The notes beneath the pieces were generated by a model. It saw only the letters and a list, made by a program, of their open reading frames with translations, was not told where the DNA came from and did not search any database. A DNA stretch of 47,622 nucleotides from an uncultured Elusimicrobia bacterium (GTDB lineage Bacteria; Elusimicrobiota; Elusimicrobia; Elusimicrobiales; UBA9959): positions 1-47,622 of the forward strand of contig CAISZM010000043.1 of NCBI GenBank assembly GCA_903889965.1, given 5' to 3'. The position numbers and the translations under genes are program-made. Shown here one piece after another: positions 20,313-30,490 of this stretch. Position 1 is the stretch's first letter. Every line of letters starts with the position of its first letter.

Positions 20313-20960
20313 TTAGTTGGTTAGCGTAGCGGCAGCGGGAGCTGCCTCCGGCGCTGTGACGGGTGAAGTCACGGGCGCGGCTGCGGGCGGCGTTTGGGCG
20401 GCAGGGGCGGCCTGCGGAGCAGTCACTTCTATATTGGGCTGCTTATCTCCGCGGCTTTCCTTGCGCTCGGCCATTTTGGCTTTGCAGGCGTCCGAGAGAT
20501 CAGCCTCATGGGTCTTCAGGCAGGCCATGCGGGCCTTGCGGTCAGTCCCCTTTACGTCTTTACAGAACTTTTCCATGTCTGCGGCGCAGGGATGGTTCTC
20601 CATGCCCTTTCCGTGCCCGGCCATTTTGGCTTTGCAGGCGTCCGAGAGATCAGCCTCATGGGTCTTCAGGCAGGCCATGCGGTCCGTCCCTTTAGAATCC
20701 TTGCAGAATTTTTCCGCGTCAGGGGCGCAGGGATGGCTCTCCATGCCCTTTCCGTGCCCGGCCATTTTGGCTTTGCAGGCGTCCGAGAGATCCGCCTCGT
20801 GGGTTTTCAGGCAGGCCATCCGGTCCGTCCCTTTAGAATCTTTGCAGAATTTTTCCGCATCGGCTTTACAAGGGCCCTGCTGGGCGAAGGCGCGGGCGCA
20901 CGGAGCGGCCAGCGCCAGAACGAACACCAAAGACGACAGCACTATTTTATTGTTTTTCAT
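20313..20960 (-). CDS. Exported protein with three Cys-rich (Cys_rich_FGFR/GLG1-like) repeats
   Basis: The 215-residue protein has a signal peptide (LVFVLALAAPCARAFA), then three repeats of about 47-50 residues. Each has the pattern C-x-A-D-x-EKFCKD...RMACLKTHEADLSDAC, four cysteines per repeat that should form disulfides. The third differs by a 3-residue insertion (RKA). A Pro/Ala-rich tail (PAAAPVTSPVTAPEAAPAA) ends the protein. The fold resembles the cysteine-rich repeat of the Golgi protein GLG1, which also occurs in bacterial exported proteins. A role in metal or ligand binding in the periplasm is possible but unproven. Confidence 0.82.
   Translation of the reverse strand: MKNNKIVLSSLVFVLALAAPCARAFAQQGPCKADAEKFCKDSKGTDRMACLKTHEADLSDACKAKMAGHGKGMESHPCAPDAEKFCKDSKGTDRMACLKTHEADLSDACKAKMAGHGKGMENHPCAADMEKFCKDVKGTDRKARMACLKTHEADLSDACKAKMAERKESRGDKQPNIEVTAPQAAPAAQTPPAAAPVTSPVTAPEAAPAAATLTN
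20469..20872 (-). repeat. Three near-identical tandem DNA repeats encoding the Cys-rich units
   Basis: Copies begin at 20469, 20619 and 20760, giving periods of 150 and 141 bases; the 9-base difference is the three-residue insertion. Long stretches are almost base-identical between copies, pointing to recent duplication or gene conversion. Confidence 0.85.
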
Positions 20961-27946: not shown

Positions 27947-30490
27947 TCAATGAACCGCGGCTTCCCCCGGGACACCGCCGGGTTTTGTGAAGATAATGTG
28001 TGCGCCGTCGGGAGAAAAGACCGCCCCGCGTATGTCGGAACCGGTTTCAAGGGAGCGTTTCAGCGAGCAGCCGGGTATGCCCCATATCTTTAGTTCGCCG
28101 TTCATCCCCCCCGAAACGATGAGGCTGGAGTCGGGGGCAAAAGCCAGCGAGAAAACGCCGCCCTGCAGGCCCTTTATTTCGCATTTAACGGCGCCCCGCT
28201 CGAGTATCGTGATCTTCTGCTCTTCTCCGGCATAGGCCAGGTACCTGCCGTCGGGTGAGAAAGCGGCGGTTTTGAGCGGGTAGTCGGGATCCGCCTCCAT
28301 GCTGCCGGCCGTCTCCCCCCCGGGAACGCGCAGCAACGCCAGGCGGCTGTCCGCGCCCGCGGCCGCCAGGAAACTGCCGTCGGGAGAAAAAGCCAAAGCA
28401 CTGACCGCCCCGCCGCGATCGGACGCGTAAGGCAGCGGCTCTCCGCCGGGCATCCTCCAGAGGCGGACAGTATGGTCCGCGCTTCCTGAAGCGAGATATT
28501 TACGGTCCGGGGAAAAGGCAAGGGCCAGAACGCTCCGTCCGTGCCCGGACAGCATTTTGATCAAGGACCGATCGGAAGTTCTCCATAGCCTGACCTTGCC
28601 GTCCAGTCCTCCGGAGGCCAGGTACTTTCCGTCGGGAGAGAAGGCCGCGGCATAATCGTCGAACGGGCCGCCCAGCTTTTTTACCAAACCCAAACCAGGG
28701 AAGCTGAACAGGCTGACGCCGTCCTGCCCCGCGGCGGCCGCGAGGCGCCCGTCCGGGGAAAAAGTCACCGCGTTGAGGGATCCGGCCTGGTTCGGGCCTG
28801 CGCCCGCCTTTTCCTTCTTAATGGCGGCGCTAAGGCAGGCGGCGTCCGCCCCCCTGTCTACCGCGTAAAGAGTTTCGGCAAGCTTATAGCCGAGCCGCGT
28901 GTTTCCGCTCAGGTCGTAAAGAAATATGGAATGTCCCGCGGTAAAGACGGGCGTAAGCCCTTCAGCCCAGCTAAAGAGCCTCTTGTCGCGGAAATAGACG
29001 CCATTTAAGGCGGTCGCCGAAATGGCCACAAGCCGTTTTTTTGAAAAACAAGGGTCGTCCTGCCGCTTACCCGCCGGCCGGTAGATATTGAAACCGAGAG
29101 GCACGTATTTTACGCCGTAATATTCCGGCCTGGCCGAGCCGAAATATCCTAGGTAGACCGGGGGAGAACCCTCCTCCTTCAAATACGCGCCCAGGGACTT
29201 AAGGTCCTGCCCCCAGTCCAGGTTCGAATCTGCCAGGAGGCGGTATCCGTGCCCGGGCCCTCCCGCCGCCTCGTTGAAATAGGCCAGATAATAGGGATGG
29301 ACCCTCATGACCGAGAACACAAGCGCCGCCAGCAGTATGAACGCGGGATACCTGGAAAACCTGTTTTGGAGAGCGCGGCGCGCCCCTATCCCGGCCGCTG
29401 CGACCACGAAAGGCATCACCGGCAGGATGTGGCGTATCCCGATCTGGACCCGGGATTGGAAAGCCAGGAGCGAATACAGGAGAATAGGGGCGTAAAGCCA
29501 TATGTGGGCTGTCCTGCCCCGCCGCGCGGAATAGAAAATTCCGAGGAAAAAGAACAGCAGGACAGTTATCGGGGTTTTTACAAGGAAAGCGAACGGGAAA
29601 TACCACCACACGCCGTTCGTGAAATAACGCCCGTTAATGAAGGAGGGGCTCCCGGCCCCTACCATCCTGGCGGAGCCGGATACCCCGCTGGCGTAAAGAT
29701 GAACCTGCCCGGGGCCGTAAATAAGGAGTATCACGGCCGCTAAACCGGCCAGATAAATAAGGACAGGCGCCAGAAGCGTGCGCGGGCCGGACTTTTTCAG
29801 AAGAAGGAATTCCATTCCCCACATTACCAGTACAAAAACGGGTAGGATGGTCATGCTGAATTTTGAGGCCATTGCCAGGGCCGTGAAAACGGATGCGGCG
29901 GCTATATACGCAAGGGGTTTCGCCCCTTTCATCCGCCCTTTGTAATTTTCCGCGAACCTCCACGCGAAGAGGAGCGCGGCCAGATAAAAGACTTCCGCGC
30001 CCGCGTCGGTGGTAGCCAGGGCGTTATTCGAAAGAATTACAGGCGTGAAGGAGAAGATCACCAGCGACAGGTACGCGCTGGCTTCGTCCTCGAGTTTTCG
30101 GGTGAAAATGAACAAAAGGACGCAAAGGAGTCCTGTCCAGAGGAACGCGGAGAAGAACCGGGCGGTGTTCAATATCTTTTCGGCGTCGACCTTGTTCTGG
30201 TAAAGAAAGGCGTCCGCCCAGCCGTACTGCAGCTTTCCGGAGTCCACCTGGCTTTCGCTGAGGATCTTGAGGTTAAGGAAGGACAAGGGGAGCGTGGCTA
30301 TCATTTCCGCGACCGGGGGGTGGTCAGTTATCCCCGGAAGGAACTTCCCCGCTTTCCAGTAAAAACAGCCCCGCGCGATATGTACCGGCTCGTCGTACGT
30401 AGGGGCCGAAGCCCTGATGAACGAGCCGCTCATGTACAGATTCAGCAGGACGGAGACGAGGGCGGCGCAGGCCAGGATCCTGTTTTTCAT
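27947..30490 (-). CDS. ArnT/PMT-like membrane glycosyltransferase fused to a WD40 propeller
   Basis: The 847-residue protein has two parts. Residues 1 to about 570 are a polytopic GT39/PMT_2-like domain: an acidic DE motif in the first loop (APTYDEPVHIARG), HPPVAEMIATLP, about ten further membrane helices and the motif LLADSNLDWGQDLKSL found in this group. Residues about 571-847 hold seven WD40-type segments of about 42 residues, each with (A/T)FSPDG or a variant and most ending in a RLW-like strand; the last is incomplete. Such enzymes move sugars from lipid carriers on the outer face of the inner membrane. A WD40 domain joined to one is unusual and may bind a partner or scaffold acceptors. 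No strong Shine-Dalgarno is seen. Confidence 0.85.
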   Translation of the reverse strand: MKNRILACAALVSVLLNLYMSGSFIRASAPTYDEPVHIARGCFYWKAGKFLPGITDHPPVAEMIATLPLSFLNLKILSESQVDSGKLQYGWADAFLYQNKVDAEKILNTARFFSAFLWTGLLCVLLFIFTRKLEDEASAYLSLVIFSFTPVILSNNALATTDAGAEVFYLAALLFAWRFAENYKGRMKGAKPLAYIAAASVFTALAMASKFSMTILPVFVLVMWGMEFLLLKKSGPRTLLAPVLIYLAGLAAVILLIYGPGQVHLYASGVSGSARMVGAGSPSFINGRYFTNGVWWYFPFAFLVKTPITVLLFFFLGIFYSARRGRTAHIWLYAPILLYSLLAFQSRVQIGIRHILPVMPFVVAAAGIGARRALQNRFSRYPAFILLAALVFSVMRVHPYYLAYFNEAAGGPGHGYRLLADSNLDWGQDLKSLGAYLKEEGSPPVYLGYFGSARPEYYGVKYVPLGFNIYRPAGKRQDDPCFSKKRLVAISATALNGVYFRDKRLFSWAEGLTPVFTAGHSIFLYDLSGNTRLGYKLAETLYAVDRGADAACLSAAIKKEKAGAGPNQAGSLNAVTFSPDGRLAAAAGQDGVSLFSFPGLGLVKKLGGPFDDYAAAFSPDGKYLASGGLDGKVRLWRTSDRSLIKMLSGHGRSVLALAFSPDRKYLASGSADHTVRLWRMPGGEPLPYASDRGGAVSALAFSPDGSFLAAAGADSRLALLRVPGGETAGSMEADPDYPLKTAAFSPDGRYLAYAGEEQKITILERGAVKCEIKGLQGGVFSLAFAPDSSLIVSGGMNGELKIWGIPGCSLKRSLETGSDIRGAVFSPDGAHIIFTKPGGVPGEAAVH

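Follow-up and report, generated by a model that had tools for sequence, protein, structure and literature searches.

We describe a protein of 847 amino acids in which a glycosyltransferase of the GT-C type and a seven-bladed WD40 propeller form a single chain. It is encoded on the minus strand of the window, the whole stretch of 47,622 nucleotides from an uncultured Elusimicrobia bacterium that was analysed here. No such single-chain form came up in the literature searched; a pairing of GT-C enzyme and WD40 propeller as separate proteins has already been reported from mycobacteria. Sequence, prediction and phylogeny support the fusion itself, both folds, the location of the propeller outside the cytoplasm, and a split form of the same pair with overlapping genes.

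Results

One reading frame encodes both parts

The reading frame of the fused protein (P0001) opens with an ATG at position 30490 and closes with a stop at 27947-27949 on the minus strand; its 847 codons contain no internal stop. The interval is exactly the one given by the sequence-only reading, to which we add the strand. The features are as follows.

27947..30490, minus strand: fused gene, GT-C glycosyltransferase plus WD40 propeller, 847 aa (ORF, Pfam, AlphaFold)
29303..30490, minus strand: 11-helix GT-C membrane domain, residues 1-396, N-terminus inside and C-terminal end outside, as predicted (AlphaFold, loop charges, Foldseek)
30389..30394, minus strand: D33-E34, directly behind helix 1, at the position of the DE motif in PMTs (invariant in 42 rows)
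28811..29302, minus strand: soluble extracytoplasmic domain, residues 397-560, common to propeller-free homologues (alignment, AlphaFold)
29207..29230, minus strand: DSNLDWGQ signature, residues 421-428 (alignments)
28772..28810, minus strand: linker, residues 561-573, the fusion site, of low confidence (pLDDT below 50 at 562-572)
27950..28771, minus strand: seven-bladed WD40 propeller, residues 574-847 (Pfam, AlphaFold, Foldseek)

Pfam finds PMT (PF02366, 32.0 bits against a curated cut-off of 22.7), PMT_2 (PF13231, 34.5 bits against 26.1) and WD40 (PF00400, 140.7 bits, E 6e-42) in P0001. AlphaFold2, run on an alignment of 22 sequences of which only four extend across the propeller columns, gave a mean pLDDT of 84.6 and a pTM of 0.80. 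The model consists of eleven helices between residues 4 and 396 (our own tally of the predicted helix list), a soluble region up to 560, the linker at 562-572, and 27 strands between 574 and 845. ORF, Pfam and AlphaFold together bear out the initial proposal of a PMT/ArnT-type GT-C enzyme that runs unbroken into a seven-blade WD40 domain. An integral membrane domain of residues 1-570, as first proposed, is slightly too wide: the helices stop at 396, and 397-560 form the soluble domain. The seven (A/T)FSPDG segments noticed in the sequence match the 27 predicted strands, which make up six four-stranded blades and a final three-stranded blade. In the alignment, GT-only homologues stop at about the linker; one of them, L005, has PMT and PMT_2 as its only Pfam domains.

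Could the joint between the two parts be an artefact? A frame or assembly error is ruled out, because the same layout is found again in other genomes (three genomes in all have it) and in a second copy. Nor are the two parts separate genes in all relatives: they are split in two relatives and fused in three genomes. Both parts form one chain in four proteins, with a low-confidence linker between them.

The enzyme part has a GT-C fold

Predicted alone from 42 sequences, the enzyme part reached a mean pLDDT of 90.7 and a pTM of 0.92. A Foldseek search of the PDB with this model returned ArnT with undecaprenyl phosphate (5f15, E 5.4e-7) as the top match, followed by STT3, ALG12, ALG9 and Pmt4, the top matches all having a probability of 1.00. 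The TMq of the best GT-C match is only about 0.46, so that the fold is that of GT-C enzymes and the details differ. The features of the GT-C superfamily are present, namely a multi-helix membrane domain of GT-C fold and conserved acidic residues in the first outer loop. A sequence profile of the enzyme found no convincing relative in the PDB (best E 0.18), and no NCBIfam model matched the enzyme part of the window at E 0.01.

D33, E34, D162, K210, R353 and H354 are invariant in all 42 aligned rows, and DSNLDWGQ is almost invariant across the aligned enzymes. ArnT (GT83) and PMT (GT39) have the GT-C fold, acidic residue(s) after helix 1 and, by family, a lipid-phosphate-sugar donor in common with the fused enzyme; they differ from it in structure and sequence, with TM-scores of about 0.33-0.47 and identities of 11-17% in Foldseek. 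To our knowledge, neither of them has a propeller. PMTs are described as carrying a DE motif at the position that matches D33-E34 (PMC5486049), and the proposed catalytic Asp of the GT136 enzyme ORF12 sits in the same place (PMC11127046). For the fused enzyme, we infer the catalytic residues and the lipid-phosphate-sugar type of donor from the family. The genome of the window, which is 90% complete, yielded no GtrA, one type of flippase for donors of this kind.

The propeller is predicted to lie outside the cytoplasm

With PF00400 over its cut-off and seven blades, the last of them three-stranded, the C-terminal domain is a WD40 propeller, and its structure matches 7bie with a TMt of 0.91. PkwA (5yzv) likewise has a seven-bladed WD40 propeller (TMt 0.86-0.90); it differs from the fused protein in being listed by the PDB as a probable serine/threonine kinase instead of a glycosyltransferase.

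On which side of the membrane does the propeller reside? Averaged over 42 sequences, the six presumed inner loops contain 1.5-3.5 lysines and arginines per 10 residues and the six outer loops 0.03-1.15, with helices taken from the prediction and the last loop counted through residue 430. Eleven helices and an N-terminus inside place everything after residue 396, the propeller included, on the outside by prediction. The extracytoplasmic position first suggested for the propeller is thus borne out by prediction, that is, by loop charges over 42 sequences and by AlphaFold, and we rejected a cytoplasmic propeller on the basis of the loop charges. On topology and propeller closure the structure prediction gives eleven helices, the C-terminal side out, and seven blades. 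The idea that the propeller caps the active site is weakened, because the linker is poorly predicted and the propeller stands alone as a separate protein in two relatives. Two cysteines, C770 and C808, are kept in six propellers. Both start neighbouring outer strands; a disulfide between them, judged without coordinates, seems unlikely.

Fused proteins and overlapping split genes

The full layout is also found in two other genomes of the same genus, with 61-62% identity to P0001. The window's own genome holds a second full-length copy (L002; G000:C56:18238-20754) with 43% identity, which has lost DSNLDWGQ and retained D-E after helix 1; its function may be altered. The fused form amounts to four proteins in 3 of 59 family genomes, all or nearly all candidates having been scored. 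An enzyme match at E 1e-50 is present in 46 of the 59, and four matches span both parts. The census covered the phylum Elusimicrobiota: a search of 340 genomes again yielded these four fused proteins, and 55 of the genomes had an enzyme match at E 1e-100. In the 340-genome searches the best two candidates per genome were scored for the fusion and the best seven for the propeller. When both were redone on the 59 family genomes with all or nearly all candidates scored, neither the set of four fused proteins nor that of six propellers changed. A contig scan confined to close relatives (metagenome-assembled Elusimicrobia genomes) gave 10 loci, one of them fused.

The propeller family consists of P0001, L003, L004, L002, L007 and L043. 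In L007 (genome G004) and L043 (G155, of a different genus), enzyme and propeller are neighbouring genes, and in both the stop codon of the enzyme overlaps the start codon of the propeller as ATGA. The propeller gene begins MSRSVCWLLAAACALSAC in L007 and MKVVILLGAALCFCGC in L043. Both N-termini are hydrophobic, and we read them as export signals. That of L007 fits a lipobox pattern, and that of L043, which is atypical, does not strictly do so; a lipid anchor is likely in the former and possible in the latter. Neither N-terminus gave a significant match to a Pfam lipoprotein family.

Enzyme and propeller as one evolutionary unit

Do the fused and the split propellers share a common origin? When the ORFs of the analysed loci were searched with a profile built from the four fused propellers, the two split propellers were its top single-domain matches outside the training set, nearly full length and with 225.5 and 183.8 bits, compared to 145.1 for the next. 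In a tree of 29 domains (more than 170 model positions each, duplicate loci L064-L068 and L090 excluded), the six family propellers group at 95/89 against 23 other WD40 domains of the phylum. A profile built from the six, which hence favours them, scored them at 415-474 bits in the 59 family genomes, where every first-pass candidate was scored, and the next WD40 domain at 198; given this gap, no unlinked member of the propeller family was seen in these genomes.

The enzyme tree (n=49) left out identical or contained rows and rows spanning fewer than 440 query positions; like the propeller tree, it was drawn from the analysed loci, a subset of the phylum. One clade with 100/99 support holds the four fused and the two split enzymes together with two that have no propeller. 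A propeller is fused or at most 1.5 kb away in 6 of the 8 clade enzymes versus 1 of 41 outside, the flank searched being 1.5 kb, or less at contig ends (e.g. L014, L016, L031). The lone outside case is an Anaerolineae locus with a gene 1.2 kb off, in which PD40 is the best match (171 bits) and WD40 stays below cut-off. Linked pairs come from two genera, g1 and g15. The clade members of G033 and G145 are without any member of the propeller family, so the enzyme can work without a propeller. These data support the view that enzyme and propeller are one evolutionary unit.

There may have been one fusion or two. In the enzyme tree, split L007 groups with P0001, L003 and L004 (99/95) and split L043 with L002 (93/83); a single clade of the four fused enzymes is rejected (p 0.0069). 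This tree implies that the ancestor was split and that fusion took place twice, in accord with the metalloenzyme and peptidase genes that the loci of L002 and L043 have in common. In the propeller tree, the four fused propellers stand together (94/86); a group of P0001, L003, L004 and L007 is rejected (p 0.012), and one of L002 and L043 is not (p 0.088). L002, L007 and L043 form long branches in both trees, and the tested groups were named after the trees had been seen.

Both parts evolve with a dN/dS of about 0.2 (L003 versus L004, and P0001 versus L003, the latter pair with a dS of 1.3 to 1.8, near saturation). The linker, taken as 27 codons with few changes, evolves faster, with a dN/dS of about 1 for L003/L004 and 0.6 for P0001/L003. 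For L003 versus L004, dS falls from 0.33 in the enzyme part to 0.13 in the propeller part, and the lower value suggests that the propeller part has recombined.

No neighbour gene found in common among all loci

Synteny across relatives, a check named in the sequence-only reading, yielded no neighbour gene conserved across all fused and split loci, with ORFs tiled by length, a procedure that small or antisense-covered genes can escape. At the two propeller-free loci, G033 (L050:8852-12767) and G145 (L051:6612-10756), the enzyme gene and a gene for a class A penicillin-binding protein overlap, with 8 and 4 bp in common, respectively. The product carries the Pfam domains Transgly, Transpeptidase and BiPBP_C and is presumably PbpC-like. 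The idea that this protein is a general partner of the enzyme found no support: relatives are encoded in 37 of 59 genomes (E 1e-60), and only in G033 and G145 were they seen beside the enzyme. In the other genomes listed, they are on different contigs from the best enzyme matches.

Discussion

What might a propeller contribute to a membrane glycosyltransferase? The reading to which we give an even chance is that of a lipid-phosphate-sugar transferase with an extracytoplasmic propeller as a working subunit, which binds the acceptor or an envelope partner. As a member of the PMT/ArnT type, the enzyme would take a sugar from a polyprenyl-phosphate donor and add it to an acceptor at the outer face of the inner membrane. 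The propeller, on the side of the membrane where the active site lies, would be a permanent accessory subunit that binds the acceptor or an envelope partner and brings the bound molecule to the active site. In two relatives, with overlapping genes, it would act as a separate protein that is exported and perhaps anchored to a lipid. In the lineage of the window two genes would have become one, and the export signal of the propeller may have been lost because the C-terminus of the enzyme was already outside. That the propeller recruits the acceptor is inferred by analogy; it is our first choice over complex building.

The closest precedent is the assembly of AftB, FecB and MMAR_1667/Rv3035, likened here by description. 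According to PMC12802301, AftB and MMAR_1667 of M. marinum come down with FecB, as do FecB and AftB with MMAR_1667; MMAR_1667 has a WD40 propeller and a predicted lipoprotein signal, and the authors propose a CBM-like role for it. The evidence in that paper is mass spectrometry of pull-downs with each of the two partners as bait, mutants with similar phenotypes and a predicted trimer; an attempt to co-purify tagged AftB with tagged FecB failed (PMC12802301). Like the fused protein, as predicted here, this assembly combines a GT-C transferase that works outside the membrane with an exported WD40 partner. Unlike it, the assembly has separate genes, eight predicted blades, FecB as a third partner and an arabinan product. 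The claim that no characterised enzyme has this layout holds for the fusion within the literature searched, with AftB as an enzyme whose WD40 partner is a separate protein. No GT-WD40 fusion was among the matches listed in that search, which covered few subscription papers and no bioRxiv preprints; in the main text of a survey of prokaryotic WD40 proteins (PMC5587647), the words 'glycosyl', 'transferase' and 'Elusimicrobia' are all absent.

Other GT-C enzymes have added domains of a different kind. According to PMC11127046, EmbC and AftD contact the acceptor glycan through carbohydrate-binding modules, and the C-terminal CBM of GT136 ORF12 of Citrobacter binds the acceptor and is dispensable under the conditions tested. 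All three resemble the fused protein in joining an extracytoplasmic beta-rich domain to a GT-C core (PMC11127046); ORF12 differs in that the domain is an immunoglobulin-like CBM instead of a WD40 propeller and in that its substrates are known. Yeast PMTs have MIR domains in luminal loop 5, as described in PMC5486049.

Alternatively, the propeller may be a structural hub that places the transferase in an envelope complex without touching the acceptor, a reading that we consider possible though doubtful. WD40 propellers are mostly protein-binding scaffolds. They are described mainly as such in PMC12802301, the recovery of both FecB and AftB with MMAR_1667 is in keeping with a hub, and so is the finding that the propeller-free enzyme genes of G033 and G145 overlap a penicillin-binding protein gene instead. 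Against this stand the failure to find a partner gene common to fused or split loci and the separation, elsewhere, of penicillin-binding protein relatives from the contigs of the best enzyme matches. A sensor that tunes the enzyme in response to an extracytoplasmic signal would suit a linker of low predicted confidence, which may be flexible, and a domain that is missing in G033 and G145; no conserved signalling gene was found nearby, however, and we regard this role as improbable. Equally improbable to us is a chance joining of unrelated neighbour genes, by which the propeller would have borrowed the enzyme as a membrane anchor. Since the split propellers seem to be exported and may carry a lipid anchor, a fusion that tethers them would leave their location unchanged, and genes may be linked without a functional link. 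Yet linked pairs are found in two genera and in 6 of the 8 clade enzymes, and no unlinked family member was seen in 59 genomes (the 415-474 versus 198 bits cited above, from a profile that favours the six).

The same pairing in another phylum, and in one chain, makes a role shared with the mycobacterial assembly plausible. We tentatively extend this to a broader proposal, which we would not call probable: the extracytoplasmic WD40 propeller may be a recurrent accessory of GT-C enzymes in unrelated bacteria that in Elusimicrobiota became fused, perhaps twice, to give acceptor choice as an alternative to carbohydrate-binding modules. The occurrence of a fusion alongside a split form with overlapping genes argues well, if indirectly, that the GT-C enzyme and the exported WD40 propeller cooperate. 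The single-chain version allows the role of the propeller, be it acceptor choice, complex building or regulation, to be tested by its removal or by comparison with the split form, and the fused enzyme offers a way into the glycans of a phylum that has been little studied.

Other genes at these loci

Next to the fused gene, in tail-to-tail orientation, is another gene for a GT-C-type protein, which ends in TPR repeats (L048:6920-8887 and L047:7233-9150); the gene is one ORF in G011 (L048, 655 aa) and two ORFs in the tiling of G002 (L047). PMT_2 enzymes with C-terminal TPR resemble the fused protein in combining a GT-C-type domain with C-terminal repeats, and differ in that the TPR repeats are helical and no propeller is present. 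In two outer relatives (L055:3349-9620 and L054:6642-11675), the enzyme gene is directly upstream of a gene for a protein of 1,080-1,100 aa, which in L055 has a weak match to DUF4175, just below cut-off. Cys_rich_FGFR repeats are better known from eukaryotic Golgi proteins. On the minus strand of the window, positions 20313-20960 encode a protein of 215 aa in which three near-identical cysteine-rich repeats can be discerned by eye and which Pfam assigns to Cys_rich_FGFR (PF00839) with 34.0 bits against a cut-off of 22.
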